The notes under the pieces: generated by a model
Told to the model about the DNA's origin: nothing
Seen by the model: the letters and a program-made list of their open reading frames with translations, nothing else
Databases searched by the model: none
Source of the DNA: Christensenella massiliensis
Lineage (GTDB): Bacteria > Bacillota > Clostridia > Christensenellales > Christensenellaceae
Assembly (NCBI GenBank): GCA_900155415.1
Contig: LT700187.1
Location: 1,116,001 to 1,180,000, forward strand
DNA: 64,000 nucleotides
Direction: 5' to 3'
Position numbers and translations under genes: made by a program
Shown: in pieces, positions 38,232 through 55,598 of the stretch
How the letters are laid out: every line of letters begins with the position of its first letter
Position numbering within the stretch: the first letter of the stretch is position 1

Positions 38232-38324
38232 ACGTTCTCCCGTCCGAAATGGATTATTTATTATTATACCACATAGGCAATAGGCAAGTAACAAACCGGC
38301 CTGACATATCGTTCCTCCCGCCGC

Positions 38325-38480
38325 ATGGGAAGCAGGCTCATCCGTGACCGGACGTACTATATTTATAGTTTGGAAAAGAAATATAAACGGCTGCCGAACG
38401 AAGCCGGAGGGAAGGAGACGACACTGCCGGAAGATGCAGGAACGGAGACGGATTCCCTGCCCAAAAAATATAAAGTATAA
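38325..38480 (+). pseudogene. Remnant of a Fic gene with an internal deletion
   Basis: The 51-codon frame GSRLIRDRTYYIY ... KYKRLPNEAGGKETTLPED ... SLPKKYK matches two separated parts of the intact Fic protein at 16815-17717: GSRLTHDQTRYIF (about residue 94) and KYKRLPNEVGGKATTLPED (about residue 172). About 65 residues between them are missing, and the catalytic HPF motif is absent. No ribosome site is present. The remnant ends exactly where the 267-bp surface-protein leader begins. Confidence 0.8.
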
Positions 38481-38738
38481 AATTATTCTCTTCATTTCAC
38501 CCGGATTTATCCGCTGTTCGTCATTTTTTGTACAGAGGGGCCGCAAACGCGGTCTTATCTGCTATGATATTTTTACCGGTTTCGTGCGCACCGCTGCGGC
38601 GCGCGCGGAAGCTTATTATATAAACTGTTCTGATTCGTCAGCTTATGGAGGGCTCGATATGAAAAAAATTGTGTGTATGATATTGGCTGCCGTCATGATA
38701 TGCTCATTCGGCGCGACAGGCTTTGCGCAGGACGGCAT
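38472..38738 (+). repeat. 267-bp leader plus signal-peptide cassette, copy A
   Basis: This segment covers 187 bases upstream of the surface-protein ATG plus the first 80 coding bases. It matches 53348-53614 without gaps; I count seven mismatches, about 97% identity. Similarity stops abruptly at both ends. It contains the ribosome site ATGGAGGG and the whole signal sequence. Confidence 0.92.
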
Positions 38739-41700
38739 TCCGGAGAGCGGCGGGCTGCCGCCTGTTCAGGATAGCTCCGTCAATGATGCGGAAGCGCCGC
38801 CGTCTGCGGAGCCGTCCGCTCCGCCGCAGGAAACGGATGCTTCTCCGGGGGAGAGCGGCCCGGAAAATGCCGGACCGTCCCCGTCTGCGGTTGTTTCGCC
38901 GCAGCCTGCGCAGGTACAGAGCGCGAATGCTGCCCCTGTCCCGAGCGCGGCTCCCGCATTGGGAGAAACGTCCGGCGCGGGCGGCACGGCAGTGTCGCGC
39001 GGTATTATCGGCAGGATTAGGGAGCCGCTGTCTGAACGGGCAAAAGAACTGCTCGAGACGCAGATCGTACTGGCGTTGGAGGATATGTCGGAGGATGGAA
39101 GCGAATTTGCCGGAGGCCTGCTGTTCTTCTTCTACAATGCGACCGATTATACGCTCGTTGAGATATACGAGACAGTGCTCGAAACGCTGGAGGTCGTCAA
39201 TGAGATCGACGACGAAGTGGACGCGCTCACCATACGGATGGAGGAGCTGTTCGATGAAATAGAAAGAGGATTTGCGCAGAACGCCTATAACGACTGCGCC
39301 GAGGATCTGGACGCGGTATACGGACGTCTCGCCCCGCTTTGGGAGGATTACACGGCGCTTCTGGCGGAGGCCGACGCAAAAGCGGAGGACGGCGAGATTT
39401 CGGAGCCGGAAGAGCTTGCGATCCAAGGAAAAACAAAAGAACTGATGCAGGATATCTACGCAGTCTACGGTCCTTTTGGCGTCTCGAGCTTTGAAAGCGA
39501 CCTTGAACTGGTGCACAATGCGATGTACAGCCCGTCCGGGCGCACGACGTTCACGGACGCGCAGATCGAACTGTCCCGTCTGAATCTTCCGTTTGAGCAT
39601 CAGATCGTAGACGAAGCGGCTGCGGCGTTCAATTACGGGGCGGCTCTGCAGACGGCCCTGCTCTGGCTGTATGGAGAATATTCAAACTATATGCTGAGCA
39701 ATGATACCGTGCTGAACGACCCGCAGGTAACGCTCCATCCGTTTGCGGCGGTCGGCGATCAGACGATCGAAAACCTGAACGCGCAGGCGGAGAAAAGCGG
39801 CATAAACGAGCTGATGACGCCGGAGGAGGTCGAGACGAGCATCACGCTGGCCGACGGTACAGTGCTGCCCGCCTATCATGTGATCGTGAACGCGGACGGG
39901 CACGAATATATGATCGGCCGGGAAACGCTGCGGCTGGGTTCTGCCGTCACGAGCTATAGCAGGGAAAACGATATCTACCGTCAACCGAGCCACGAGGGAA
40001 AGCTGACCAGTGCGGACGGGCGTTGGTATATCCCGGCGACCGAGAGCGAGATGAAAACGCTGTTTACCTCCACGATCACGAACCCCGGCTCGTGGCTGTC
40101 GGATCAGGGCAAGCTTTCCCTGCCCTCGCATGACGCGCTTCTTTTGGCCGATATCAGCCAAAAGACCGAATCGCGCCTGAACGGTATCCAAAAGCAGTAT
40201 ATCTATTCGTTCGATCAGGGCATGCTGGATTCCCACCACCTGACGGGAGACAGGGATAAAGTAACGGCTAATTCCTATCACGACATAGTGGATGAAGATA
40301 CGAGCGTAAAGTGGGCGGGCCGCTCAGAGGAAATTTTATTCCAAGATACGGAGCTGCTGTATGTTTTCTTTGATAAGAGCAACCAGACGGCAGGGATCCC
40401 TACGGACGACAATGGTTTCCTCGCGCCCAGCGATCCGACGACTCTGCCGGATGAGATCTATCTCGGCGAGGGCAGCGGACTGAACCTGACCAAACTGAAT
40501 TCCACGGATATGCTCAATAAGGTGGTGGTCGTATCGGGAAACGCCGCGATTTTAGGCGGCGGACGCACCTACCAGAACCTCCAAATCCAAATGCGCCCCG
40601 GGGCGGATCTGACGGTGGACGGCCTGAACATAGACCACAAGAATATGAATAAGGCGGCGGTCGACGTATATGCATCGGACGCGAAGCTGACCGTAAGGGG
40701 CGAATGCAGCTTCCGCGGCGGCGCGGGGATGTATCTGGATAAGGACAGCGTGCTCGATGTGAAAGGAGAGGGCGAAGGCGCAGCTATTACCATTGCCGGA
40801 ACGTGGGGATTCAACGTCCATGAGGACAGCTATGGGAATTTTCTTGGGCCGACAACGGCAAGGTTTGACGGTCTTGCGGTTTCCGTACAAGGCACGGAAT
40901 ATGGGCTTCGCGGGTTGTATTGGATGGAATGCAGAAACTGCGACGTATATATAAGCGGCGACAAGTGCGATCTTTATACACGGACGACCGGCGGAGTGAA
41001 CTGCTATTTTTACGACTGCAACGTAACGATAGCCCATAATACAAAAAAAGATCATCATGTGAACGTGAAAATATCTGAATCTACGGCGATCAACACGCCG
41101 GTAAGCTACAAAATAAAGACCGCTACCAGTTATGTCAAGAACGCCGAGAGCAAGTCGGATATTTACCTCTACCTTACGGGAACGGACCGGTCCGGTAATA
41201 CTGTGACCACCAACGGAGTCAATATTACGGATTTAGCGGGCGGCAAATTTACCAATAACAGTTATGATAATTTCTATACGGATTTTGACGTGTATCTGAC
41301 GGATATTGATTATATCACGCTGGTCAACAAGGGCAGCGACGCATGGTATCCGGACTGGATCGAGATCACAAACGATTATGAACTGCCGAATCCGGAGACC
41401 GGAGAAGAGTGTTACTATCATTTCAAGGTTGATTCGTTCATCGATACGAAAAACTATGAGTACCGGTTTACTCATGACGGCAAACGGAACGCGCCTGCAA
41501 CGGTTGGCTCGACACAGCCGATCAGCGATGAAGAGCTGATCGCCATGCTGGAAAAGGCAGGTGCGCCGAGCACCCTGCAAACGACCGTGGACGATGGGCA
41601 TACCGTTTCCGCGCAGGTTCTCGCAGCGCTCAAGCGTTTGGGGCAGCGGCTGCAATATGCCGTAACGGACGCGGACGGGAACACGCTGTACCAGTGGAAA

Positions 41701-42165
41701 TTTGACGGCACAAAAATTACGGATGCTTCCCTCCTGACGAGGCTGGGCATCACGATCGCAAAAACGCAGGAGGATGATTACGGCGGCCTGCTCGCGGGAA
41801 AAGACGGGCTGGTACTGCGCTTTGCGCACGACGGCCTGCTTCCCGGCGGAACGCAGGTCCGCGTCAACGCCGCGCGGCACGGCTATGCCGAGGGCGATAT
41901 CTTTACGCTGTATCATATCGGGGACGGCGCGCTGAAAACGGCGGCGGAGGGCCTCGCTGTGGGAGAAGACGGATTCGTCACGCTGGAGATATCCCATTGC
42001 TCGGATTATGCGCTGGTCAAAACAGGAACGGGCGGGAGCGCGAACCCGAAAACAGGAGACGGACGCGATATTGCTCCGTGGCTCGCCCTGACGGCGGCTG
42101 CGGCAGGCGCGGCGGCGTTTTGTGCGGCCCGTTTGAGAAAACGGCGCAGGGGGGATATTTCCTGA
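38659..42165 (+). CDS. Large sortase-anchored surface protein
   Basis: 1168 residues from the ATG at 38659 (GGAGGG site); the frame is open far upstream but only through the leader. The signal peptide (MKKIVCMILAAVMICSFGA) is followed by a Pro/Ala/Ser-rich region to about 110 and a helical acidic region (about 115-400). A middle part rich in short beta-strands and Asn/Gly turns follows (ILGGGRTYQNLQIQMRPGAD onward), resembling a right-handed beta-helix. At the C-terminus NPKTGD is followed by a hydrophobic helix and RLRKRRRGD, a sortase sorting signal. It is presumably covalently linked to peptidoglycan. No enzymatic motif is recognised; adhesion or glycan binding is plausible. Confidence 0.85.
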   Translation: MKKIVCMILAAVMICSFGATGFAQDGIPESGGLPPVQDSSVNDAEAPPSAEPSAPPQETDASPGESGPENAGPSPSAVVSPQPAQVQSANAAPVPSAAPALGETSGAGGTAVSRGIIGRIREPLSERAKELLETQIVLALEDMSEDGSEFAGGLLFFFYNATDYTLVEIYETVLETLEVVNEIDDEVDALTIRMEELFDEIERGFAQNAYNDCAEDLDAVYGRLAPLWEDYTALLAEADAKAEDGEISEPEELAIQGKTKELMQDIYAVYGPFGVSSFESDLELVHNAMYSPSGRTTFTDAQIELSRLNLPFEHQIVDEAAAAFNYGAALQTALLWLYGEYSNYMLSNDTVLNDPQVTLHPFAAVGDQTIENLNAQAEKSGINELMTPEEVETSITLADGTVLPAYHVIVNADGHEYMIGRETLRLGSAVTSYSRENDIYRQPSHEGKLTSADGRWYIPATESEMKTLFTSTITNPGSWLSDQGKLSLPSHDALLLADISQKTESRLNGIQKQYIYSFDQGMLDSHHLTGDRDKVTANSYHDIVDEDTSVKWAGRSEEILFQDTELLYVFFDKSNQTAGIPTDDNGFLAPSDPTTLPDEIYLGEGSGLNLTKLNSTDMLNKVVVVSGNAAILGGGRTYQNLQIQMRPGADLTVDGLNIDHKNMNKAAVDVYASDAKLTVRGECSFRGGAGMYLDKDSVLDVKGEGEGAAITIAGTWGFNVHEDSYGNFLGPTTARFDGLAVSVQGTEYGLRGLYWMECRNCDVYISGDKCDLYTRTTGGVNCYFYDCNVTIAHNTKKDHHVNVKISESTAINTPVSYKIKTATSYVKNAESKSDIYLYLTGTDRSGNTVTTNGVNITDLAGGKFTNNSYDNFYTDFDVYLTDIDYITLVNKGSDAWYPDWIEITNDYELPNPETGEECYYHFKVDSFIDTKNYEYRFTHDGKRNAPATVGSTQPISDEELIAMLEKAGAPSTLQTTVDDGHTVSAQVLAALKRLGQRLQYAVTDADGNTLYQWKFDGTKITDASLLTRLGITIAKTQEDDYGGLLAGKDGLVLRFAHDGLLPGGTQVRVNAARHGYAEGDIFTLYHIGDGALKTAAEGLAVGEDGFVTLEISHCSDYALVKTGTGGSANPKTGDGRDIAPWLALTAAAAGAAAFCAARLRKRRRGDIS

Positions 42166-42235
42166 GAAAATGCATGAAAATAAACACGGCCCGGAAGCAT
42201 CAGGCGGCGCTTTCGGGCCGTTGTTTGCCTAAGGA

Positions 42236-44224
42236 CTATTCTGCAAGAGGCAGACGGACGGTAAATTCGGTTCCATGTCCCTCCTCAGACTGCACACCGA
42301 CGTCGCCCCCATATTCCTGCGCGACGGTACGCACGATATAGAGCCCCATTCCGGTTCCCCCATCGGCCGAACGCGTCGTGAAAAAGCGGTCGAACACGCG
42401 CGGGAGGATGTTTTTCGGAATACCGCTTCCCGTATCCCGCACCGAAAGGAAAGCGTCTCCGTTCCGGCAGGAAAGCGACAGTATAATACTGCCGCCCGGC
42501 GGGGTAAAGCTGACGGCGTTATACAGCAGGTTTTGAACGAGCCGGGTAAGCTTCTCCGGATCCGCATAGACCGTGCAGGCTCCCTGTTTCGGCAGTTCAA
42601 GGGAAAAAATTTGGCCGTCCATCTCCACATCCGGCTTGTTGAAGCGGTAAAGGTCACGGAGAAAGACGCACAGGTCAAGCCTTTTGCGGGGCGTTATCAG
42701 ACGGTTTTCAGCGGCGTATTGCTGTACCTGCCTGATGCGGTCGCTGAGCATGCCGCACTTTTCCTCGATGACTGCAAGCTGTTTCCGCGTTTGCTCATCC
42801 AGCTGCACATTGTTGCTGCGTACCATCTGTGCGTAGGAAAGCATAAACGCTGCCGGCGACTTCATATCGTGCAGGAACCGGGAGATCAGGTCCTCACGTT
42901 CGCTTACCATCAGACGGATATCATGGGTCTGCCGCTCGACCTCTTCCTGCAGATGTTGGGTGAGCCGCAGGTTTTCCTGTACGACGGCATAGCTTCTGCG
43001 CACCACGAGAATGCCGAAGCATACGACAAGCGCCAGCGCGCCATATTCCTCCATCCAGCCAAAGCGCATGGGCTCAAAGGTGCTTACGGTAAGCGCGCCG
43101 GCAAGTATTCCCGCACCGTAAAATCCGGAGCCGGCAAATATCCATGCCATGTTGTCTTTCCCACGCAGCGTTCCGTAGAAAGAGAGCGCGGTCAGGATCC
43201 CGGCGCTCAAAAAACGGTATACGGTAACGAGTGTTCCATACCACGCGGCAAAAGCAGGAAAAACGGGCAGAATAAACAGCGGAATGATCCCGCCCACGAA
43301 TACCATCGTAAGCGCGGTGCGGGAGATGATGTGGGCAAACCGCGTATGAGACAGGCCGCATACCCGCAGCGCTATGCAGAACGTTCCCCATAGGAGCAGC
43401 AGGAATGCCGCGTCCTCAAGCGCGTAACACAGGTTTACGGCAGACGTTCCGAATGTCCAAATAAAAGCATGGGCCGTCCAAACGGAAAAAGCAAGGGCGA
43501 GCACTCCGAAGCTCTGTATCAGACTGTTCCGTTTCTGCCGCTTCCCCATCCAAAAAGCAGCGGAAAACACTGCGGCGGCAAGCGTGCCGAAGCAAAGGAG
43601 CCCATAAAAAGCGAGCCGTGCCGCGCGAAGCTGTCCGACCGTCTGCGCCGTTCCAAGAACAGGCGGATAGGTGAGTCCGCTGTAATAATGTGTGGCATTG
43701 ATGGTCTGCAGGACGATCTCGTTTTCTTTGGCCAGAGAAAATGAGACGGCCGTGTCACGCACAAACGGAGCATACGGCTGTGTGGAGCCGCATTCTGCTG
43801 CCAGCCTGCCGTTGATATAAAGCCGGAACGCGCAGAACACCTCCGGCAAAAGCAAAGAGGCCGTGCCTTCCGGGCCGCTGTAGGAAAAGCGGAGACGCCA
43901 TGTCGCGCTGCCGTAGGGATCGCCGTCCGAATGGAACGAAGAAAGCGTCAGGTATTCTCCCACAAAAGCATCGGTCGGCCGGATATCCCCGGCTGAAAGC
44001 TCCGACGGGGAAAGGAGGCGGTCGGGATACAGCTCCCAGCCGTCCGCCAGACTGACGCCCGCCGCAAGGTTTTGCCGCGTTACGGAAAGGATTCCATCTT
44101 GCGAAACGGGAACTCTGTCGGTATACTTGTTATCGTAATAGAAAATAAACGTAAAAAATACGGTCGCAAAGCAAAGAACGATGCCGAATATGATTATAGA
44201 ACTGCATGCTGTCCGTATTTTCAT
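42236..44224 (-). CDS. Sensor histidine kinase with 7TM-DISM-type sensor region
   Basis: A 662-residue membrane kinase. One N-terminal helix leads to an extracytoplasmic beta-rich domain (about 35-200). Multiple membrane helices follow (about 205-400), then a coiled-coil. The HisKA box is FLHDMKSPAAFMLSYAQM and the HATPase has NLLYNAVSF (N box), DTGSGIP and GGTGMGLYIV (G boxes). It should autophosphorylate on the His of HDMKSP and pass phosphate to the response regulator encoded at 45874-46572. The two are separated by a divergently transcribed surface-protein gene, which is unusual. The start has GAGGTGA. Confidence 0.9.
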   Translation of the reverse strand: MKIRTACSSIIIFGIVLCFATVFFTFIFYYDNKYTDRVPVSQDGILSVTRQNLAAGVSLADGWELYPDRLLSPSELSAGDIRPTDAFVGEYLTLSSFHSDGDPYGSATWRLRFSYSGPEGTASLLLPEVFCAFRLYINGRLAAECGSTQPYAPFVRDTAVSFSLAKENEIVLQTINATHYYSGLTYPPVLGTAQTVGQLRAARLAFYGLLCFGTLAAAVFSAAFWMGKRQKRNSLIQSFGVLALAFSVWTAHAFIWTFGTSAVNLCYALEDAAFLLLLWGTFCIALRVCGLSHTRFAHIISRTALTMVFVGGIIPLFILPVFPAFAAWYGTLVTVYRFLSAGILTALSFYGTLRGKDNMAWIFAGSGFYGAGILAGALTVSTFEPMRFGWMEEYGALALVVCFGILVVRRSYAVVQENLRLTQHLQEEVERQTHDIRLMVSEREDLISRFLHDMKSPAAFMLSYAQMVRSNNVQLDEQTRKQLAVIEEKCGMLSDRIRQVQQYAAENRLITPRKRLDLCVFLRDLYRFNKPDVEMDGQIFSLELPKQGACTVYADPEKLTRLVQNLLYNAVSFTPPGGSIILSLSCRNGDAFLSVRDTGSGIPKNILPRVFDRFFTTRSADGGTGMGLYIVRTVAQEYGGDVGVQSEEGHGTEFTVRLPLAE

Positions 44225-44260
44225 AGGATCACCTCGTTTCCAAAGAAAGGAGCGCCGTTT

Positions 44261-45856
44261 ATGTCAGAGCGACGGTTCCTGCGCAAGGCAGGTCTCATTC
44301 TGGCTGTATTGCTGGTTTTTTTAAATATTCCCATTATATCATACGCCTCCGGCATGGAACAGACGGACACACAGGAAACGGTGTGGGAGGAGGCGTCCAG
44401 TTTTGCGGAGCTTACGGAAAAGCTGGATTCCATGCGGCAAACAGGCGGGAATCTGCGTCTTACGGCAGATATTACCGTTGAGCAGGGAGAAGCCTATGAT
44501 TTTATTGCACCGCAGCTCATGGGAAAGGAGCCGGTCCTTTTGGACCTTGGCCCATACACCATTACAGTGCGGGGAACGCTTGCGCTGTATCCATACCTGC
44601 ATATCACGGGACAGGGCGGGCAGGATGGCCTGTTCCATGTAGAGGAGGGCGGATGGCTGGAAGTGTGGAGCATAACGGTCTCCGCGCAGGACGGCGTTGC
44701 GATACGGCAGGAAGACCGCTCTATTCTCGCCTATGGCAATCTGTTTGACGGAATGCCGGATTTCGCGTGTGAGGGGGAGATCATCCTTGCCGGCCCGGTC
44801 GCGGTGCCGAGATCGGCGGATGACCATGAATATCTTCCGGTTTTATATGTGCGCGACGGCGAGCGGCTGGAGGATGTTCTTCCCGAAACGGACCGCGCGG
44901 CTTTCTATGAAAACGGAACGGTCGATTATGAGCGCGACCTGCCTGTTTTATGGGATACCGAAGCGTTCGCCGGGCAGATCGGGCGCAAGGAACGCTTTCT
45001 GCTCACCGGAACCTACAGGGACGCGGCGGATTTTTCACCGCCGCAATGTCTGGTGACATTCGAGAACGGGAATCCTGCCACACTGCTTGCCTGCAGCACT
45101 TCCGCTATGCAGGGAGGGCTGATCGGCGACGTATGGGTCGCGTTTCCCCGGCCGGGCCCGGAATGCCGGCTGGACTGGTCTTCCGATGGGGAGCACTGGC
45201 AGCCCTGTGTATTCGAGATACAGCGCGAGCAGGACGGCAGGATACAATATGCAATAGAGCTCCCGGGAGCAAGCTATCCGTTTTATCTTTCCGCTGCCGT
45301 CCGATCGGAAACGGGCGGGGAAAGCTATTCCGATACCATCCGCATCGATGGTCCGGACGATACGGGAAAGATCGGCGGCAACCGCGGCGGCGGAACGGAT
45401 ATTTTAGAGCCTGACCTGCCGCCTGTTGTTTCCTCTCCCGGACAGGAGCAGGAGGGGCCATCCTTGTCTTCTGAGGCTTCTTCCGGCCAGAACGGCAGCG
45501 GAACGCCTGCTGCGGAACCGGATAAGATGGCACCGGCTGAAGCCGGTGCGCCCGCATCCGCACGGGAACAGAACGGCTCTTCCCCAGAATATGAAGAGCA
45601 GCCGTCGCCGTCTCAGCCGGTGCAGGAGGAACCATACAACGAAAAAAATGCCGGACAGGAGTCTGGAGCTGCGGAAGAGCCCGCCGAGGCATCCTCCGCG
45701 CAAAATATACAGAAAAAGCCGGAATATATGGCTCCCGCGCTGCAAATCATAATAGGCGCTGCGGTCATCGCGGGAATTGCTGCGCTCGTATTCACATGGG
45801 GGACCAAAGCCGGACTTGGCGCCAAGCTCAAGCGGCTTTTCCGTAAAAAGCAATGA
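44261..45856 (+). CDS. Membrane-anchored surface protein, pectin-lyase-like beta region
   Basis: 531 residues from the ATG at 44261 with AAAGGAG; the longer frame overlaps the kinase gene and is rejected. The signal peptide is RKAGLILAVLLVFLNIPIIS. The N-terminal third (ELTEKLDSMRQTGGNLRLTA ... LHITGQGGQDGLFHVEEGG) looks like the start of a beta-helix. A Pro/Glu/Ser/Ala-rich linker (about 385-485) leads to a membrane helix (LQIIIGAAVIAGIAALVF) and a basic tail, with no LPxTG motif. It lies between the two halves of a two-component system on the opposite strand and may be its target or a signal partner. Confidence 0.8.
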   Translation: MSERRFLRKAGLILAVLLVFLNIPIISYASGMEQTDTQETVWEEASSFAELTEKLDSMRQTGGNLRLTADITVEQGEAYDFIAPQLMGKEPVLLDLGPYTITVRGTLALYPYLHITGQGGQDGLFHVEEGGWLEVWSITVSAQDGVAIRQEDRSILAYGNLFDGMPDFACEGEIILAGPVAVPRSADDHEYLPVLYVRDGERLEDVLPETDRAAFYENGTVDYERDLPVLWDTEAFAGQIGRKERFLLTGTYRDAADFSPPQCLVTFENGNPATLLACSTSAMQGGLIGDVWVAFPRPGPECRLDWSSDGEHWQPCVFEIQREQDGRIQYAIELPGASYPFYLSAAVRSETGGESYSDTIRIDGPDDTGKIGGNRGGGTDILEPDLPPVVSSPGQEQEGPSLSSEASSGQNGSGTPAAEPDKMAPAEAGAPASAREQNGSSPEYEEQPSPSQPVQEEPYNEKNAGQESGAAEEPAEASSAQNIQKKPEYMAPALQIIIGAAVIAGIAALVFTWGTKAGLGAKLKRLFRKKQ

Positions 45857-45873
45857 AATACAGCGCAGCACGG

Positions 45874-46572
45874 TCAGCTTTCTTCTGAAACGAACCGATA
45901 GCCCTGACCGCGTATCGTTTCGATATATTCTTTTTCAGGGCAGAGAAAATGCAGCTTGCGCCTTACTTCAGATATGCGCGCCTGAATCGCATGGCGCCCT
46001 AAATTGACCGGTTCGCGCCACACCCTGTCGTGCAGCTGCTCATAGGAAAAGACACGGCCGGGATGGCGCGCAAGAAACGCGATGATCTCAAACTCGATCC
46101 GCGAAAAGTCTCCTTTTTGCTCTCCATACCATACCTCGCGTTTTCCGGTATCGATTTTGAGCGGGCCAAATTGCAGGAGCTCCGGCGGAAAATCCTCCGT
46201 GCGCCGTTGGATGCGCAGGCGTATCCGTGCTTCCAGCTCCAAAAAGGAGCAGGGCTTGCATACATAATCGTCTCCACCGATCGAAAGTCCACGCACACGG
46301 TGCTCCTCCTCCGTATAGACGGAAAGAAAAATGATAGGAACCGAAGAAACCGCGCGGATAGCGGTACATACGTCGAACCCGTCCCATTCCGGAAGATCGA
46401 CGTCCAGTACGATGCAGTCAAATGCGGTAGAGGTCACGGAGCGGAGCACGTCTTTTGCATCGGAAAGACATGTGACGGTATAGCCGCGTTCCTTAAAAAA
46501 ATCACGGCAGATCTGCAGGAAGTCCGTATCGTCATCTATAAAAAGCAGCTTATAATTTTTATGGCCTGTCAT
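45874..46572 (-). CDS. OmpR/PhoB-family response regulator
   Basis: A 232-residue regulator. The receiver domain has acidic DDD at residues 13-15, the phospho-acceptor Asp in IVLDVDLPEWDG, Thr/Ser in LSVYTEEE and Lys in CKPCSF. The C-terminal winged helix has FSRIEFEIIAFLARHPGRVF and IQARISEVRRKL ... IETIRGQGYRF. The ribosome site is GGAGGC. It is presumed to pair with the histidine kinase at 42236-44224 and to regulate the neighbouring surface-protein gene, with which its 3' end converges only 17 bases away. Confidence 0.92.
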   Translation of the reverse strand: MTGHKNYKLLFIDDDTDFLQICRDFFKERGYTVTCLSDAKDVLRSVTSTAFDCIVLDVDLPEWDGFDVCTAIRAVSSVPIIFLSVYTEEEHRVRGLSIGGDDYVCKPCSFLELEARIRLRIQRRTEDFPPELLQFGPLKIDTGKREVWYGEQKGDFSRIEFEIIAFLARHPGRVFSYEQLHDRVWREPVNLGRHAIQARISEVRRKLHFLCPEKEYIETIRGQGYRFVSEES

Positions 46573-47042
46573 GACAGCATTGCCTCCGGGATACTGATTT
46601 CCTCCCTATTATAGCATAGGGAAAAATGCGGAATATTTGGAAATTGTCCGCTGGACGTCATATTTTGACGTTTCGTCCGCAGGCTGTGATAATAAAATGC
46701 CGTAAAAATCAGCGGAAAGAGATTCACGGCGGCCCGAGAGAAACTGCGGTATTGGAAAACAGCCGAAAAAATTCTGGAATATAAAAAAGCAGGGGGCCGC
46801 GGAACAATAGGCAAAAATCAGGCTGTGGACCCGCCTTGACGACGGACCCGCGCTGTTTGCCCGAGCATGCTCCGGCACGCTGGCTTACAGAAAATAATAG
46901 GAAAGCGGACGAGCCGCTTTTTCAGGACGACAGACTCCGGATATAGTCATCGTCTCCCCAAACGATACGCAAAGCATATCGTTTGGGGGAATCGCTGTAC
47001 CGGAAAACCAAAGCCGGATGAAGCTCCCGTTTTATTAAAAGC
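46573..47042. other. Intergenic region with a 12-bp perfect inverted repeat
   Basis: No supported gene. It contains CCCCAAACGATA (46956-46967) / TATCGTTTGGGG (46977-46988) with a 9-base loop and no T-run on either strand, so an operator or RNA element is more likely than a terminator. A smaller AAAGCGG/CCGCTTT stem followed by TTTC lies at 46902-46922 and may be a weak rightward terminator. Confidence 0.5.
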
Positions 47043-47543
47043 TCACGGCTCGAAACAGATCTCCCGTACCCCATCCTCGATATAGTAGTGCATCTCCTCA
47101 TGCACATCCGCATCCGCTGCGATCTTCTGGATATCCATTCTGCAATAGGTGACCTCGGCGGAAGCGAGCGGCTCGCCGCGCACATCCAATATCTCCGTAT
47201 TGACGCGGAAGAAAAGCGGGCTGCTTTTGGCAAGCCGTCCTCTTCCGAATAGGTCGGCGCCGTAGGGAACAGGCTTCCTGTATTTCACATTCAGATTGAT
47301 GGTGACGCCCCACGTATCCTCCGCTTCCGTCCAGCAGGCCCGAAGCCCGAGCTCGTCGAGCATGGCCGATATGAGGCCGCCGTGCACCCGGCCGGGATAG
47401 CTCTGGTGCTCTTCGCGGAACTGAAACGGCGTTAAGACGCTGCCGTCCTCCATATTATAGAACTGGGCCTTCAGGCCAAAGGGATTATCCATACCGCACA
47501 TCACGCACATGCGGCTGTTCCTCTGCTTGCTCAAAACTTTCAT
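47043..47543 (-). CDS. PaaI-type hotdog-fold thioesterase
   Basis: A 166-residue hotdog protein. HQSYPGRVHGGLISAMLDELG carries the family HGG motif and the general-base acidic residue, and GVTINLNVKYRKPVP is the second strand pair. An N-terminal CVMCGMDNPFGL segment is frequent in this subgroup. It probably hydrolyses acyl-CoA thioesters in the cytoplasm. The start has GAGGTGA. It stands alone with no clear pathway partners. Confidence 0.85.
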   Translation of the reverse strand: MKVLSKQRNSRMCVMCGMDNPFGLKAQFYNMEDGSVLTPFQFREEHQSYPGRVHGGLISAMLDELGLRACWTEAEDTWGVTINLNVKYRKPVPYGADLFGRGRLAKSSPLFFRVNTEILDVRGEPLASAEVTYCRMDIQKIAADADVHEEMHYYIEDGVREICFEP

Positions 47544-48177
47544 GCATTCACCTCAAAATATACCGTAAGATTTCCGAAATGCGGAGATAAAATATATTAT
47601 AATAGAAAGGAAAAAGATAAAAAAGGAGTTTTGAAGAGAATTCCATGCAGAACGGATGAAAAGGGATGAACGAAAAGCAAAGGGCAGCAGTTACAGCTAT
47701 GGAAAAATTTGGCCGTGTGTTTGCCGGAGCAGACTCGCGTTTGTTGCGATGACACGGGCACAAAAGAAGCGGTGGCTCTCCGGCGCGTTTTGATGGATCG
47801 CCCTGCCATCCATTCCGCTTTCTGTTTGATATTGGCGCAAAGTTCGTCTATACGCGGTAACAATGGGCTTGTGGAAGAAACGAGAAATTATGTACGCTAT
47901 TGCCGGTAAAATATGCCGGAGAGAATATGGAGGCTCCCGTTTCCGGACGCGCAGAGGGAAAGCACGCGGTATTCAGCTGTGGAACGGTACTGGATGCGGA
48001 TATGGATAAGGCGGCGTATGCCGCCCGGTTCGATGGACTGGATATGCCACGGCGCATCTCATTCCGTGTGAAATTGGAAAAGTTATAAACGCCTCTATAT
48101 GCGGGAATCGAAAAAAGCGTAGTAACGGATTGCTTTTTTTGGTATAATAGAGAAATCATATGGGGCCTGCGGCCGCC
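47544..48177. other. Intergenic region, possible gene remnants, promoter of the rhamnose operon
   Basis: About 640 bases with several short rightward frames broken by stops (for example MEKFGRVFAGADSRLL and the frame 47900-48088). They have no common reading frame and no recognisable family, so a decayed gene is possible. A TATAAT box at 48143-48148 lies about 40 bases before the glycosyltransferase start. Confidence 0.4.
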
Positions 48178-48190
48178 GGAGGATATGTTT

Positions 48191-48988
48191 TTGAAGTATG
48201 ACGTGACGCTCAGCATCGTCAATTACAACGACTATGACCGGGCAAAAGAGGCGATCGCCTCTATCCTGCAATATACGCACGGGATACGTGTAAAGATCTA
48301 TCTTGTGGATAACGCGTCCAAAGACGGGAGCGCGACGCGGCTTGCGGACGAGTTTTCCGCGATCAGCGTGATCTTCAGCGATAAAAATCTGGGTTTCGGC
48401 GCGGGGCACAATCTCGTCCTGCCTCTGATCGATTCGGATTTCCACGCGGTGGTGAATCCGGATATCATTCTTGCGGGCGATATCCTTGCGGAGCTTGCGG
48501 ACTATATGCGCCGTCACCCGGATATCGGGATGTGTACGCCCGCCATCCGCTATATGGACGGAACGCCCCAGCATCTTCCCAAACGCAATCCGCGTTTGAA
48601 ATACCTGATCGCAAACCGTGCGCCGGGCAAACAGTGGGAGCCTTTGCGGCGGCACTATAAAATGCTGGACGAGGATCTCTCGGACGTAACGGATATCGAG
48701 TTTGCGTCCGGCTGCTTCCTATTCGCGCGCACGCCGCTCTTAAAGCTTGTGGGCGGGTTTGACGAACGGTATTTTATGTATTTCGAGGATGCGGACCTTA
48801 CGCGGATGCTGCGGAAAAATGCGCGCGTGGTCTATTATCCGTATGCGTACGTCTATCACGATTATTCCCGGACGAGCGCGCACAGCGCGCGCTATCTGAT
48901 GATCCATATCGCTTCCATGTTCAAGTATTTCTGGAAATGGCGGGGAGCGGGAGCTGTGCAGGACGGCATTACAGTCGGACCGGGATAA
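48191..48988 (+). CDS. Family 2 glycosyltransferase (rhamnosyltransferase-like)
   Basis: A GT-A enzyme of about 265 residues. [19 protein letters not shown] and [14 protein letters not shown] bind nucleotide sugar, VVNPDIIL holds the metal-binding DxD equivalent, and [18 protein letters not shown] carries the ED catalytic region typical of rhamnosyl transferases. The TTG at 48191 has GGAGG at the ideal 8-base spacing, while an ATG two codons earlier is only two bases from that site, so TTG is preferred. It is the first gene of the rml operon and presumably builds rhamnose-containing cell-wall glycan. Confidence 0.85.
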
Positions 48989-49014
48989 AATACGATTTGA
49001 AAGAGGGAAAAGAA

Positions 49015-49896
49015 ATGAAAGGAATCATATTAGCGGGCGGAAGCGGCACGCGGCTCTATCCGCTCACGATCATGACGAGCAAGCAGCTTTTGCCCGTCTA
49101 CGACAAGCCGATGATCTATTATCCGCTTTCCACGCTGATGCTTGCAGGGATCAAGGATATCCTGATCATCTCCACGCCCGTCGACCTGCCGCGGTTCCAA
49201 AACCTGCTGGGAGACGGACAGCAGTTCGGTATCTCGCTCTCCTATAAGGAGCAGCCGTCGCCGGACGGCCTTGCGCAGGCGTTTATCCTCGGAGAGGAAT
49301 TCATCGGAGGCGATTCGTGCGCAATGATCCTCGGAGACAATATTTTTTACGGAAACGGCCTTTCGCAGCTGATGGCAGAAGCGGTCGCAAACAAAAACCG
49401 TGCGACGGTGTTCGGATATTATGTAGACGACCCGGAACGCTTCGGCATCGTGGAGTTCGATGCAGACGGCAAGGCGCTGTCGGTAGAGGAGAAGCCGGAG
49501 CAGCCCAAATCCAATTATGCCATCACCGGCCTGTATTTTTACGATGAACGGGTGGTGGAATACGCGAAAAGCCTCAAGCCAAGCGCACGCGGCGAGCTTG
49601 AGATCACGGACCTCAACCGCATCTATCTTGAAAAGGGCGACCTTGACGTGAAACTCATGGGGCGCGGCTATGCATGGCTCGATACGGGAACGTTCGATTC
49701 GCTGATCGAGGCGGCGGAATTTGTGCGCATGCTGCAAAAGCGGCAGGGCATCGTGATGTCCGCGCCGGAGGAGATCGCCTACCGCAGAGGCTGGATCGAC
49801 GAACGGACGCTTGTGGAAAGCGCGGACCGGTATGGAAAATCATCGTATGGGCAGCATCTGCATGCTGTCGCGAAAGGAAAGGTGCTTGATATATGA
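49015..49896 (+). CDS. rmlA: Glucose-1-phosphate thymidylyltransferase
   Basis: 293 residues from the ATG at 49015. The nucleotide-binding motif [20 protein letters not shown] and [17 protein letters not shown] are diagnostic, as are [24 protein letters not shown] and [11 protein letters not shown]. It makes dTDP-glucose from glucose-1-phosphate and dTTP, the first step to dTDP-L-rhamnose. The stop overlaps the start of rmlC by four bases. Confidence 0.96.
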
Positions 49897-50438
49897 AAGC
49901 GATAGAAACGGGGATCGAAGGCCTTGTGGTGATCGAGCCTGACTGCCACGGCGACCACCGCGGCTGGTTTATGGAAACGTACAGCAAGCCGAAGTTTGAA
50001 GCGCTCGGCATCACCTGCGAATTTGTGCAGGACAATCAGTCGTACTCGGCACAGAAGGGAACGCTGCGCGGCCTGCATTTTCAGAAGAATCCGATGGCGC
50101 AGTCGAAGCTTCTGCGGTGTACGCGGGGAAAGATACTCGATGTGGCGGTGGATATCCGCAAAAATTCACCGACCTATAAAAAATGGTATGCGGTGGAGCT
50201 TTCGGCGGAAAACAAAAAACAGTTCTTTATGCCGAGGGGCATGGCGCATGGTTTTGTCACGCTCACGGACGACGTGGAGGTGCAGTATAAGGTGGACGCG
50301 GTCTACGCGCCCGACTGCGACCGCTCCATCCGGTTCGACGATCCGGAGATCGGCGTCGACTGGGGCGTCACAGAACCGATTCTTTCGGAAAAAGACCTCA
50401 AAGCGCCTCTGCTTGCGGACAGCGACGCAGATTTTTAA
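49893..50438 (+). CDS. rmlC: dTDP-4-dehydrorhamnose 3,5-epimerase
   Basis: A 181-residue cupin-fold epimerase. [19 protein letters not shown] holds the catalytic His, and [14 protein letters not shown] and [20 protein letters not shown] are diagnostic. It acts on dTDP-4-keto-6-deoxyglucose. It overlaps rmlA and is followed by a cluster of small hairpins before rmlB. Confidence 0.96.
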
Positions 50439-50440
50439 GC

Positions 50441-50517
50441 GCACGCGCGAAAGCGTGCCGCAAGCGCCTGTGAAACAGGCAGCGGACCGCCCAAAAGGCG
50501 TTTCCTGAACTTTCAGG
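50441..50517 (+). other. Cluster of four small hairpins between rmlC and rmlB
   Basis: Four consecutive stems lie in 77 bases: GCACGC/GCGTGC, CCTG/CAGG, CGCC/GGCG and CCTGAA/TTCAGG, mostly with A-rich loops of 5-6 bases. No T-run follows. This could be an mRNA stability or processing element, or a small repetitive insertion. Confidence 0.5.
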
Positions 50518-50560
50518 CGCACGGCGCGGCGATACAGATCAATTTTAAGGAGTTTATGAT

Positions 50561-51583
50561 ATGACGAAAGTACTTATCACCGGCGGCGCCGGATTCATCG
50601 GGAGCAACTTTGTGTTCCACATGCTTGAAAACCACCCGGATTATGAGCTTGTGGTCGTTGACCTGCTCACCTATGCGGGCAACCTCGAAACGCTGAAAGA
50701 CGTTTTGGACCGCCCGAACGTCCATTTCTATAAGGCGGATATCGCGGACCGGGAAGCGATTTTTGAGCTTTTTGAAGACGAACGCCCCGACACGGTGGTC
50801 AACTTCGCGGCAGAATCCCATGTGGACCGTTCCATCGAAGACCCGGGCATCTTCCTGCGTTCTAATATCATCGGCACGCAGACGCTGATGGACGCCTGCC
50901 GCAAATACGGGATCGGACGCTATCATCAGGTCTCTACAGACGAGGTGTACGGCGATCTGCCGCTCGACCGTCCAGACCTGTTTTTCACAGAGGAAACGCC
51001 GCTCCACACGTCGTCGCCCTATTCGGCGTCCAAAGCCAGCGCGGACCTGCTCGTGCAGGCGTATCACAGGACGTATGGGCTTCCGGTCACGATCTCGCGC
51101 TGCTCGAACAACTACGGGCCCTACCATTTCCCGGAGAAGCTGATCCCGCTCATCATTTCGCGGGCGCTTGCGGATGAAAGCCTGCCGGTGTACGGAACGG
51201 GCGAAAACGTGCGCGACTGGCTGTATGTGCGCGACCATTGCACAGCCATCGACCGTATCATCCACGACGGACGTGTGGGCGAGGTATATAATATCGGCGG
51301 GCACAACGAACGCACGAACCTTCAGGTCGTCAAAACGGTCTTAAAGGAGCTTGGAAAGCCAGAGAGTCTCATTACATTCGTCAAAGACCGCGCAGGACAC
51401 GATATGCGCTATGCGATCGATCCGGCCAAGATGATGCGGGAGCTCGGCTGGGAGCCGACGACGACATTCGACGAGGGGATCAAAAAAACCGTGAAGTGGT
51501 ATCTTGAAAACGAGGAATGGTGGAAAAACATCATCAGCGGAGACTATCAGCAATATTACGAAAAGATGTATGCGAATAGATAA
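50561..51583 (+). CDS. rmlB: dTDP-glucose 4,6-dehydratase
   Basis: A 340-residue extended SDR. The Rossmann motif is [15 protein letters not shown], the active site is STDEVYGDL (Thr-Asp-Glu), and YSASKASAD is the YxxxK pair. [12 protein letters not shown] and [19 protein letters not shown] are diagnostic. It converts dTDP-glucose to the 4-keto-6-deoxy sugar. AAGGAG precedes the ATG. The final enzyme, RmlD, is encoded 4 kb away at 55599. Confidence 0.96.
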
Positions 51584-51622
51584 CGGGGCGCAGGGCTCCT
51601 AAGCTGACGACACAGATTTACC

Positions 51623-51661
51623 GCATATAAAAAACGCCGGATACCGGCGTTTTTTATATGC
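51623..51661. terminator. Bidirectional terminator after rmlB
   Basis: GCATATAAAAAACGCCGG pairs with CCGGCGTTTTTTATATGC around a two-base AT loop, with long A and T flanks. Confidence 0.92.
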
Positions 51662-51731
51662 AGCAGAGCGCGCGGCACCCCGGCAGACAGAGATAAGAAA
51701 AACGTACGGAAACAGATTTTTGGAAAGTGTA

Positions 51732-51762
51732 TTGACTTAGAGTGAACTCCAAGATTTATAAT
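51732..51762 (+). promoter_or_regulatory. MerR-type promoter with 19-bp spacer and dyad operator
   Basis: TTGACT and consensus TATAAT are separated by 19 bp, too long for ordinary sigma-A use. The spacer holds an imperfect palindrome, CTTAGAGT-GA-ACTCCAAG. Over-long spacers with a central dyad are the hallmark of promoters activated by MerR-family proteins, and this motif resembles those of AdhR/NmlR-type aldehyde or electrophile sensors. No MerR gene is found within the window beside it. It drives the CMD-cupin gene. Confidence 0.75.
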
Positions 51763-51848
51763 GGTCCTGACAGCAGGGGAACGTAAGGGAACCTTTCAGA
51801 ATATTTGCGGTAAAAATGGCGAATATATAGGCATAAGGAGGGAACAAA

Positions 51849-52607
51849 ATGAAAAAGCAAACGGCGGGGCGGGACAGCCTCGGAAAATTTGCACCGAAAT
51901 TTGCGCAGCTGAACGACGACGTGCTGTTCGGTGAGGTATGGAGCAGGGAAGACAAGCTGTCGCTGCGGGACAGGTCGCTCGTGACGATATGCGTCTTTAT
52001 GGGGAAAGGCTTGGTGGACAGCTCGTTGAAGTTCCATCTGGTAAGTGCAAAAAACAATGGCATCACGCAGGAGGAAATGGCGGAGATCATTACGCACGCT
52101 GCCTTTTATGCCGGCTGGCCTAACGCGTGGGCCGTATTCAACATGGCGAAAGAGGTATATGCGGACGGCGATGCCGAAAAAGCGCATGGCGGACTATTCG
52201 GAATGGGAGAGCCCAACACGGCCTTTGCACAGTATTTCACAGGGAATTCCTATCTGAAGTCCCTGACGGACCCAAGCGGAGCGCTGTTTTTAGCCAATGT
52301 GACGTTTGAACCGGGCTGCAGGAACAACTGGCACAAGCATCTCGCCAAAAGCGGCGGCGGACAGCTTCTCGTCTGCGTCGAAGGAGAGGGCTGGTATCAG
52401 GAGGCGGGCAAGGCGGCTCAAAGCCTGAAAGCGGGAGACGTTGTTACGATACCGGCAAACGTCAAGCATTGGCACGGCGCGAAACGGGATTCATGGTTCA
52501 GCCATATTGCGGTCGAGGTTCCGGGAGAAGAGACTGAAAACGAATGGATGGAGCCTGTAACAGATGAGGAATATGGGAATTTAGAGCGGGAGGCGCGCGG
52601 CGAATAA
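51849..52607 (+). CDS. Carboxymuconolactone decarboxylase-like/cupin fusion protein
   Basis: A 252-residue two-domain protein. The N-terminal CMD domain (about 1-105) has RDRSLVTICVFMGKGLVDSS and EEMAEIITHAAFYAGWPNAW. It lacks the CxxC of AhpD-type peroxidases. The C-terminal cupin (about 130-235) has NNWHKHLAKSGGGQLLVCVEG and a second HWHGA motif for metal binding. Such fusions are common beside electrophile- or aldehyde-responsive regulators. The MerR-type promoter upstream supports a stress-induced role. The reaction is unknown. Confidence 0.87.
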   Translation: MKKQTAGRDSLGKFAPKFAQLNDDVLFGEVWSREDKLSLRDRSLVTICVFMGKGLVDSSLKFHLVSAKNNGITQEEMAEIITHAAFYAGWPNAWAVFNMAKEVYADGDAEKAHGGLFGMGEPNTAFAQYFTGNSYLKSLTDPSGALFLANVTFEPGCRNNWHKHLAKSGGGQLLVCVEGEGWYQEAGKAAQSLKAGDVVTIPANVKHWHGAKRDSWFSHIAVEVPGEETENEWMEPVTDEEYGNLEREARGE

Positions 52608-52652
52608 GAGGCCGCGGCTCAAGAGAGCAAGAAGCTGACGGAAGGAGGAAGT

Positions 52653-53213
52653 ATGCGAAAAAAACGAATAAGGTTCGCGGGACTTGTCCTGACGGCGTTT
52701 GCCCTCGCGGCTGTGATGACCGCTGCCGCATGTGCGGAAGCAGAACCGCAAAAACAAAATGACGACGGCAGGGGCTATGCCGCAGCCGGCGTGGAAGAAC
52801 AGGCTGATGAGATGAAAAATAAAAATGCGGATATGGAGGAGGCGGCGAAGAACGCAGAGCTGAAGATCGCCGTGGGCGACACGGTTCTGACGGCATCGCT
52901 GGAAGAGAATTCTTCTGCACAGGCATTGGAGCAGCTGCTTGCAGACGGCCCGCTTACTATTGAAATGCGGGATTACGGTAATATGGAAAAGGTGGGAGCG
53001 CTCGGCGCCGAGCTGCCGGAAAACAATGAGGAGCTCACGGCGCAAGCGGGAGACCTGATTCTCTATCAGGGAGATTCATTCGTCATCTATTATGCGCAAA
53101 ACACATGGAACCTCACAAGGCTGGGGAAGATCAGGCATACCACAGCGGACGAACTGAAAGAAATACTCGGGAATGGTGATGTTACCGTCACGCTTTCACT
53201 GAATAAAGAATAA
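52653..53213 (+). CDS. Cyclophilin-like-fold lipoprotein
   Basis: A 186-residue protein with a lipoprotein signal (MRKKRIRFAGLVLTAFALAA, Cys about residue 27). A charged linker with helical repeats follows, then a cyclophilin-like domain (about 70-186): GDTVLTASLEENSSAQALEQ, MRDYGNMEKVGALG and AGDLILYQGDSFVIYY. The domain family is widespread in anaerobes and of unknown function. AAGGAGG precedes the ATG. The gap to the CMD-cupin gene is 45 bases, so the two may be co-transcribed from the MerR-type promoter. Confidence 0.82.
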   Translation: MRKKRIRFAGLVLTAFALAAVMTAAACAEAEPQKQNDDGRGYAAAGVEEQADEMKNKNADMEEAAKNAELKIAVGDTVLTASLEENSSAQALEQLLADGPLTIEMRDYGNMEKVGALGAELPENNEELTAQAGDLILYQGDSFVIYYAQNTWNLTRLGKIRHTTADELKEILGNGDVTVTLSLNKE

Positions 53214-53223
53214 CGATATGTAA

Positions 53224-53250
53224 AGGCGCGGCAAAAAGCCGCGCTTTTTT
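53224..53250 (+). terminator. Intrinsic terminator
   Basis: GCGCGGC / GCCGCGC stem with a five-A loop, followed by six T. It ends the CMD-cupin and lipoprotein transcript. Confidence 0.9.
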
Positions 53251-53347
53251 GCGCGGCGCTGCTCCCCCGCTTCTCCGCCGGGTTCATTTTACTGACGTTC
53301 CATTCAATCTCGGCAAAGATTTCGTTTTATCTGTATCTGTTTTGCAA

Positions 53348-53614
53348 AAAGTATAAAATTATTCTCTTCATCTCACTCGGATTTATCCGCTGTTCGTCAT
53401 TTTTCGTACAGAGGGGCCGCAAACGCGGTATTATTTGCTATGATATTTTTACCGGTTTCGTGCGCACCGCTGCGGCGCGCGCGGAAGCTTATTATATAAA
53501 CTGTTCTGATTCGTCAGCTTATGGAGGGCTCGATATGAAAAAAATTGTGTGTATGATATTGGCTGCCGTCATGATATGCTCGCTCGGCGCGACAGGCTTT
53601 GCGCAGGACGGCAT
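53348..53614 (+). repeat. 267-bp leader plus signal-peptide cassette, copy B
   Basis: A gap-free match to 38472-38738 (see copy A). The sequence before it (53251-53347) is unrelated to that before copy A, where the Fic remnant sits. Confidence 0.92.
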
Positions 53615-55334
53615 GAACGGCACGCAAAACCCAGCCGGAACGGCGGGTAATTTTACCGTCACCTATAAAACCAACGCCGATGTGGAAATGGGGACGCTGA
53701 CCTATGAGATCGGCGGCGAAAACGCCCTGCCTACAGCCGGCGAACTCAGCTCAAAATTCAGTACGTTTATCCAGCGCGCAAAGCAAAAGGGCGATGTATA
53801 CGTGCCGAACGACGGCGTCCTTTGGTACGAAGATAAGGAATTTACAAAGCCTGCCGCATTCCCAAACGGGCAGAAAGATGAAAACTATACCCTGTACTGT
53901 AAACTGACGATAGGCTCCATATCAGCAGGAAGCGTTAGCAATGGTGCGGAAAATAAGTCCTATGCGGACGTCGGCGGAACGATCCAGCCGTACTTAGCGG
54001 TAAGCGGCTATTACACAACAGGACGCAACGACGGATACGACGGAACGAAAGCTATCTTTGAGAAGAAAAATGCCGAAGGAAACTGGACAGAGGTGCCGGA
54101 AGAATACTGCACAGATAAATCCGGCAATACATGGCCGAATATGATTTATTTCAGCAGCGTATCTGACAGCGGCACATACCGGCTGAAAGATGTGCGCTAT
54201 ACGGCGACGGATAATGACGGAAACATCCTCTATTATGTCAATGCGGAGGATACGCCGAAAGATGAACATATCGTTACGATTGCCCCCGTGGAGCTTACCA
54301 TTACAGGCGTAACGGCACAGGACAGAAATTGCGACGGTACCGATACGGTGCAGCTTACCGGCGGTGCGCTGCAAGGCGTTTTATATGGCGATGATGTATC
54401 TTTCAGCCTTGGAAGCGGCACAGTTGCGGATAAAACCGCAGGCAGCGGCAAGCCGGTAACAACGAATATTACCCTGACGGGAGCGGATGCCGGAAACTAT
54501 ACGCTGAAACAGCCGGAAAACATTACGGTGACAATATCCCATACAGTAGATCATACCGTCTGGCATTCCGATGAAAACAGGCATTGGAATACCTGTGTCT
54601 GCGGAGAAAAAATGAACGCGGACAGTCATACCGGCGGCACGGCGACCTGTACCGAACAGGCGGCTTGCGCAATCTGCGATCAAAAATACGGAGCTTTGCT
54701 CAAACATGAGCTGACGCCTGCGGAAAAGGTAGAAGCTACCTGCACCACGGACGGCAAGGAGGCATACTATACCTGCGAAGTCTGCGGTAAGCATTTTTCA
54801 GACGCTGCCGGGCAAGACGAAATCGGTGACCTTGACAGTTACGGCATTATTGGAGCGGCAGGCCATAGCATGACGCATCATGAAGCTGTGACTGCAACCT
54901 GTGCCGCGCCGGGCAATGTGGAATACTGGCATTGCTCTGTATGCGAAAAGAGCTTTGCGGACAAACAAGGAACGCAGCCTCTTATCAGCACGGAAATTCC
55001 CGCAGGTCATAAGGCTGAAAAGACTGATAGGGTGGAACCCACCGCTGCGACGCCGGGGAATATCGAATATTGGTACTGTCCGGCCTGCGGTCAGTATTTC
55101 AAAGACAAAGACCTGACGGAAGTAATCGCGAAAGAAGAAACAGTCCTTGCGGCAATTGGTGAAACAACGCAGTCAAATCCGGAACAACCGAAAAACGGGG
55201 ATGCTGCCGCTGCAAACAATCCGAAAACCGGGGATAACAGCAATCCGGTTTTATGGATCGTACTCTTGATATTTGCAGGCGGCGCGGTCGTGGGAAGGAC
55301 TGTTTACGGACGAAGAGTGAAACACAGCAGATGA
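53535..55334 (+). CDS. Sortase-anchored surface protein with CxxC repeats
   Basis: 599 residues from the ATG at 53535. The signal peptide is almost identical to that of the protein at 38659. A beta-rich N-terminal part (VTYKTNADVEMGTLTYEIGG) is followed by a YDG-type domain (LTITGVTAQDRNCDGTDTVQ, ITLTGADAGNYTL). The second half has five CxxC pairs (CVCGEK, CAICDQ, CEVCGK, CSVCEK, CPACGQ) in repeats of about 55 residues with G(H/A)-type turns, resembling extracellular zinc-ribbon-like modules. The C-terminus is NPKTGD, a hydrophobic helix and RRVKHSR, a sortase signal. Function is unrecognised; adhesion is plausible. Confidence 0.87.
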   Translation: MKKIVCMILAAVMICSLGATGFAQDGMNGTQNPAGTAGNFTVTYKTNADVEMGTLTYEIGGENALPTAGELSSKFSTFIQRAKQKGDVYVPNDGVLWYEDKEFTKPAAFPNGQKDENYTLYCKLTIGSISAGSVSNGAENKSYADVGGTIQPYLAVSGYYTTGRNDGYDGTKAIFEKKNAEGNWTEVPEEYCTDKSGNTWPNMIYFSSVSDSGTYRLKDVRYTATDNDGNILYYVNAEDTPKDEHIVTIAPVELTITGVTAQDRNCDGTDTVQLTGGALQGVLYGDDVSFSLGSGTVADKTAGSGKPVTTNITLTGADAGNYTLKQPENITVTISHTVDHTVWHSDENRHWNTCVCGEKMNADSHTGGTATCTEQAACAICDQKYGALLKHELTPAEKVEATCTTDGKEAYYTCEVCGKHFSDAAGQDEIGDLDSYGIIGAAGHSMTHHEAVTATCAAPGNVEYWHCSVCEKSFADKQGTQPLISTEIPAGHKAEKTDRVEPTAATPGNIEYWYCPACGQYFKDKDLTEVIAKEETVLAAIGETTQSNPEQPKNGDAAAANNPKTGDNSNPVLWIVLLIFAGGAVVGRTVYGRRVKHSR

Positions 55335-55398
55335 CCGGCGTTTCACGGCAGTATTGAGTACAGATGCCGCTTAGAGAAAGGAAGCGCGGAAGCTGGGG

Positions 55399-55435
55399 GG
55401 CGGCCGACCCATTGAGCGGATCGGCCGCCTTGTTT
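55399..55435 (+). terminator. Intrinsic terminator after the surface protein
   Basis: GGCGGCCGA / TCGGCCGCC stem with a 13-base loop, followed by TTGTTTAT. Confidence 0.7.
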
Positions 55436-55518
55436 ATCTGTCCGGCGGTCTGTTGCTTTTCCGGAAGTATAACTGCAGACTGAAGCGTGGAACGATGGAT
55501 TTCATATATCTGCCGCCG

Positions 55519-55547
55519 TTGTCATAAAGCGGGTAAAGTGGTATACT
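55519..55547 (+). promoter_or_regulatory. Promoter of rmlD
   Basis: TTGTCA, 17 bp, TATACT, about 50 bases before the rmlD start. Confidence 0.65.
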
Positions 55548-55598
55548 TGCATCAGCGGATTAGCTGAATAAAAAATGTACGGAATGAAGGAGCAGATC

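Follow-up and report, generated by a model that had tools for sequence, protein, structure and literature searches.

In a 64,000-nucleotide stretch of Christensenella massiliensis DNA (assembly GCA_900155415.1, contig LT700187.1, positions 1,116,001 to 1,180,000; hereafter the window, whose numbering is used unless another is indicated), two genes for different surface proteins, named here P1 and P2, are preceded by near-identical copies of a 267-bp cassette. This cassette is quite likely a promoter-plus-signal-peptide module that has been copied between genes, probably once, and a reversible switch is unsupported. The module would comprise a regulator box, an extended −10 promoter, a 5′ untranslated region (UTR), a ribosome-binding site, and a signal peptide. 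Recombination would have copied it, with the result that it now stands before two surface-protein genes with unrelated bodies, and the box would be bound by the product of a neighbouring response-regulator gene. The second protein would have been recruited by the copy event into a regulon. For a human gut commensal, this would illustrate how a new surface protein may become both regulated and exported in a single step; it also points to three candidate target genes, together with a candidate regulator and its short candidate site.

Copy 1 (38472–38738, plus strand) and copy 2 (53348–53614, plus strand) align over 267 bp without gaps and with seven mismatches (97.4% identity), which lie in copy 1 at 38496, 38501, 38529, 38554, 38559, 38706, and 38707. 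The flanks on either side of both copies show no further similarity, so that the edges are sharp, and a repeat search returns precisely this block (BLAST E 1.1e-126). An earlier reading of this DNA made from its letters alone (the sequence-only reading) had described an ungapped match with about seven mismatches followed by divergence, and this description proved accurate. With ATG codons at 38659 and 53535, the cassette consists of a 187-nt leader and 80 nt of coding sequence; copy 1 accordingly holds the leader, the signal peptide, and the first mature residues of P1, while copy 2 precedes P2. The right edge, read by eye, is likely to fall just beyond the signal-peptide cleavage site. A whole-genome copy count, which the same reading had proposed, gave two copies at E ≤0.001 in the 2,560,186-bp, single-contig genome of this bacterium, with all 24 candidates scored. 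When the cassette and its surroundings, 21.3 kb of the window in all, were compared with the same genome, no other repeat of >90% identity and >100 bp was found among the at most 40 and 37 best candidates scored per genome. Elsewhere, the cassette has no match at E ≤0.001 in 40 relatives, gives only short scraps among the matches listed for 395 further genomes from the order (the two best candidates of each were scored), and has no match among phages and plasmids. No exact 20-mer of it was found in genome contigs, and no 20- or 21-mer in viral contigs; the phage, plasmid, genome-contig, and viral-contig collections may omit records of this genome or of very near ones. Judged by title, none of the papers found in a search on Christensenella with sortase deals with the cassette.

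P1 (38659–42165, plus strand, 1168 aa) has a PLAT domain and P2 (53535–55334, plus strand, 599 aa) a YDG domain (both by Pfam), and the C-termini of both carry an NPKTG anchor motif, a hydrophobic stretch, and a basic tail. By this motif, both would be sortase-anchored surface proteins. P2 scores 17.6 bits with the Pfam anchor model (cut-off 20), and P1 is not listed; since this model, at the permissive limit applied, fires in 13 of 14 control genomes too, its weak scores say little and the anchor calls depend on the motif. Outside the cassette, P1 and P2 align convincingly only at the anchor, which agrees with the earlier description of them as both sortase-anchored yet unrelated. Residues 28–1074 of P1 and 28–245 of P2 match this genome only, in a sample of 151 genomes from the order (E ≤1e-5). 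With the whole proteins as queries, five of 17 relatives match P1 at E ≤0.001, mainly in its C-terminal part (26–42% identity, best E 6.1e-13), with relative G009 also covering the middle (22%, E 3.5e-7) and relative G003 weakly matching an N-terminal stretch; P2 is matched in 10 of the 17, mostly in its C-terminal half. From these comparisons, the bodies appear to have no close relatives yet not to be wholly unique. No match to P1 was found in plasmids; patterns taken from its body were matched in genome contigs and viral contigs, with no relative confirmed there, and phages match the C-terminal half of P2 only. Duplication of a 5′ module between unrelated genes is, on this sequence evidence, close to shown.

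The probable content of the module emerged from a comparison of upstream regions. In a BLAST comparison over 166 kb (E 6.7e-5), 24 of 26 bp of the leader recur upstream of a third predicted surface gene of the same genome, at locus L114; this locus had been picked for a weak anchor match (12.1 bits, cut-off 20) independently of the leader, and the product of its gene begins, by eye, like a signal peptide and ends like an anchor. Common to the leaders and the L114 region is TTATCCGCTGWTCGTCATTTTTT (one of 23 positions differs), and the extended −10 element TGCTATNAT is located 53 nt (leaders) or 52 nt (L114) from its start. Scanned with up to six mismatches, the 23-nt motif is found in the window in both leaders and, with four mismatches, at 46644, upstream of the response-regulator gene. 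The same scan gives L114 only among the surface-gene loci of this genome, three places in a 400-kb sample of the genome, and one place in the congener DNA fetched, all of the latter four with six mismatches; a wider scan adds one more place with four mismatches, at L054 of another genome, a locus fetched for its leader resemblance. In 2,316,296 bases (counted on both strands, with some redundancy, and excluding 10 loci that overlap the cassettes), the core box TCCGCTGNNCGTCAT is exact at four places, namely both leaders and the regions upstream of the L114 gene and of the response-regulator gene, and at none in the 400-kb sample (800,000 bases, both strands).

In copy 1, the box TCCGCTGTTCGTCAT, a candidate regulator site centred at about −58, occupies 38510–38524, and it is identical in copy 2 (53386–53400); the extended −10 TGCTATGAT is located at 38560–38568 and 53436–53444, respectively, all four on the plus strand. 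The response-regulator gene is preceded by the exact box at 46647–46661 (plus strand, inverted with respect to the gene) and by the extended −10 TGCTATAAT at 46608–46616 (minus strand), which places the box centre at about −53; a four-way alignment of the upstream regions left this inverted box unaligned. With transcription taken to start 7 nt after the −10 (near 38575 and 53451 in the cassettes), the distances from box centre to predicted start are about 58, 57, and 53 nt. TGCTATNAT is present at similar spacing beside all four exact boxes; it occurs four times in the window (three of them at the box) and 16 times in 800,000 bases of the genome sample, and three chance placements within ten positions are therefore very unlikely. 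The regulator and its candidate targets are thus preceded by a common site, TCCGCTGNNCGTCAT with TGCTATNAT, at four places and at −53 to −58, in terms of sequence and of a motif defined post hoc, after being seen. A sigma-70 scan of the plus strand gave only a weak site overlapping the ATG; the extended −10 came from the comparison.

We infer from this arrangement that the shared leader element is a regulated promoter. The sequence-only reading had held that signal-peptide conservation alone could hardly explain a conserved untranslated leader, and this argument is borne out, since the leader holds an apparent regulated promoter, with a promoter-like box and −10 common to two further genes. 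The response-regulator gene (45874–46572, minus strand; Response_reg and an OmpR-type C-terminal domain, Trans_reg_C, by Pfam) and a sensor histidine kinase gene (42236–44224, minus strand; HATPase_c by Pfam) lie between P1 and P2, and the P1 and P2 genes are probably controlled by the two-component system so encoded. There is about an even chance that P1, P2, and the third surface protein belong to a single regulon, to which the copy event added the second protein.

Several observations speak against this interpretation. The box of the response-regulator gene is inverted relative to its promoter and has four mismatches to the 23-nt motif; it is no better than the L054 site from another genome, which has no TGCTATNAT nearby. 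The core is matched with one mismatch at four further places, none of which has TGCTATNAT in the printed context. At L114, the box stands about 474 nt before the ATG, and a (CAGA)17 repeat, a second promoter-like sequence, and a terminator-like hairpin (the last two by eye) intervene, so the box may not drive this gene, whose anchor is moreover a reading of the tail, given the Pfam score below cut-off quoted above. The exact box is absent from the congener DNA fetched, which leaves the site without support from other species. Finally, P1 does have some relatives, as described.

The L114 locus (about 334.6–335.1 kb of the genome, minus strand) has features of its own. The (CAGA)17 repeat falls in a short open frame, and the terminator-like hairpin, seen by eye, is near the ATG; the gene is a candidate for phase variation or attenuation.

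A 5′-end duplication or gene conversion devoid of regulatory meaning, in which identity would reflect nothing but a recent event, is a considerably less likely account. The 97.4% identity would fit recency alone, and the clustering of mismatches is weak: the first 88 nt contain five, the following 146 nt none, and the remainder two (Fisher p 0.04, with the split picked afterwards), and the mismatch-free run 38560–38705, which opens at the TG of the extended −10, has p 0.03–0.06. At such values, the clustering is suggestive only. None of the five leader mismatches affects the box, and none the −10. Further recent duplications of surface-gene ends in the same genome, described below, would also suit an event without regulatory meaning, but the box and the promoter-like element recur in two upstream regions that lack the cassette, which argues for the copied promoter.

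RNA structure was considered as the cause of leader conservation and rejected. The full leader of copy 1 folds with z −1.96 (3 of 200 shuffles as good), the predicted UTR folds no better than shuffles (z −0.96), and the predicted whole-leader fold differs between the copies, with a G+C-rich hairpin in the predicted 5′ UTR (38578–38612, plus strand) kept the same in both. A terminator-like site is found in the leader of copy 2 alone, and no Rfam family is present in the window at gathering scores. In both copies, the leader also lacks stops in the reading frame that the ATG opens (62 codons; 38472–38658 and 53348–53534), and counted back from the ATG this frame runs open for 118 and 107 codons; the openness is taken as chance because the ribosome-binding site and the signal peptide mark the ATG as the start.

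Another option raised by the sequence-only reading was a recombination system that swaps surface-protein bodies behind one expression leader. In such a surface-variation system, homologous or site-specific recombination would exchange the bodies, and a shared 5′ UTR and signal peptide before differing bodies is indeed the layout of the mycoplasma vpma and vsp genes. A serine recombinase gene (18064–19707, by Pfam) is situated about 19 kb upstream of the locus, and other surface-protein ends in the genome are duplicated too. However, there are only two cassettes, and lack of a leader silences neither, each having a complete one. A second copy of either body was not found in the genome, where residues 317–590 of P2 have a single match at 25%; the silent, leaderless bodies envisaged earlier thus did not turn up. 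The copies are in direct orientation, and recombination between them would delete 14,876 bp, including rmlA, rmlC, and rmlB. Between the copies, 11 open frames were taken as genes; Pfam revealed no recombinase in them, one frame (44264–45853) being without a Pfam family. Body swapping is accordingly regarded as improbable, while the other options of that reading, cassette duplication or gene conversion, stand, given two 97% copies before unrelated bodies. Adjoining the end of the serine recombinase gene is a 134-bp direct repeat (93%; 19549–19680 and 21011–21143), which could be attachment-site-like.

The copies might also be viewed as the ends of a 14.9-kb mobile element that integrated into, and restored, the 5′ end of a surface gene. 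Direct repeats do flank a segment, and its left part is unmatched at the DNA level: save for a fic fragment, 38232–48134 drew no match from the five congeners and two further family members searched (at most 37 best candidates scored per genome). This idea is contradicted by the glycosyltransferase-rmlA-rmlC-rmlB stretch inside the segment, which is also present in three congeners, and Pfam reveals no integrase or transfer genes. Copies expected of a mobile element carrying the cassette were not found, within the searches described above, in phages, plasmids, or, beyond scraps, other genomes. The insertion relative to congeners, moreover, differs from the repeat-bounded interval: rmlB and rmlD are adjacent in all three congeners compared, and between them C. 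massiliensis has about 4.0 kb (51584–55604, plus strand) with a CMD/cupin gene, a cyclophilin-like gene, and P2. A mobile element is thus very improbable, and an assembly artefact hardly deserves more credence in view of the seven differences, the distinct flanks at each copy, and the single-contig assembly.

Under the preferred explanation, a copied 5′ module, the surroundings bear on the source of the copy. A decayed fic remnant (38301–38472, plus strand), made of two collinear pieces of the fic gene at 16815–17717, stops at the left edge of copy 1. Because the left edge of the cassette coincides with this fic/leader junction, copying from P1 would have had to begin at this very point, which speaks for P2, or for a gene since lost, as the source; a later deletion at P1 would also explain the edge, and hence no conclusion on the direction of copying is drawn. 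The 267 bp are a lower bound for the unit originally copied, as far as the sequence tells. Farther left of P1 are an aco operon (named from sequence) and a SorC-type regulator gene, common to two congeners. A piece of this regulator gene of about 180 bp (37612–37793) recurs at 88% at positions 1340204–1340383 of the genome and is, like the fic remnant, a scattered gene fragment.

Both promoter copying and a shared 5′ UTR with signal peptide in surface-protein families are already known. In the mycoplasma surface lipoprotein families vpma and vsp, the 5′ UTR and signal-peptide region are conserved while the bodies differ (PMC2268961, PMC5634654), and vpma-type systems are described as having only one active promoter alongside silent genes, together with inversions and a recombinase gene close by (PMC2268961). 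As in a vpma/vsp/vsa-type switching system, P1 and P2 have a conserved 5′ UTR and signal peptide before different bodies; the differences are that both of their leaders are complete and point the same way, that the genome yielded no silent bodies, and that the region between the copies revealed no recombinase by Pfam, the serine recombinase gene lying about 19 kb upstream. The putative mobile promoters, for which "promoter propagation" denotes the copying of an existing promoter before another gene (PMC5906472), offer another parallel: near-identical upstream DNA before non-homologous genes, as expected of a copied promoter, is what the leaders of P1 and P2 present. In contrast to these, the unit here adds a ribosome-binding site and a signal peptide fused in frame, and its promoter is a predicted one.

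Other surface-gene ends of the genome have been duplicated as well. At loci L117 (4032–5677) and L118 (4378–6023), 1646 bp are shared at about 99% behind two different small surface proteins; this module encodes an Rrf2-type regulator and a sortase (the best NCBIfam model, class B, gives 143.4 bits against a cut-off of 153.75) in addition to the anchor end of the small surface protein. The gene preceding each of these surface proteins has, by eye, a dockerin-like end; for the L117 gene, Pfam lists none. In addition, a 3′ block of about 515–640 bp is found in four surface genes (three gene ends at L107 and one at L109, one of the four genes being seen in part), at 95–97% to the query copy and 91–98% pairwise, whereas the rest of the proteins are 25–55% identical (the highest value includes the shared end) or unaligned. 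Near-identical ends with differing bodies are what these cases, for which gene conversion between relatives suffices, have in common with P1 and P2; the difference is that most bodies compared there are related and those of P1 and P2 are not. In three congeners, 24 surface-gene loci of about 3 kb each were compared, most of them centred on gene ends and hence largely missing the leaders; no near-identical block between different genes was found there beyond locus overlap, and one related pair (71–79%) was present. It is tempting, if rather speculative and on present evidence doubtful, to suppose that this species might build its sortase-anchored proteins from interchangeable ends, with 5′ regulatory-secretion modules and 3′ anchor modules placed on fast-changing bodies. 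In that event, new surface proteins would be born regulated, exported, and anchored, and one of the 3′ anchor modules would travel with its own sortase.

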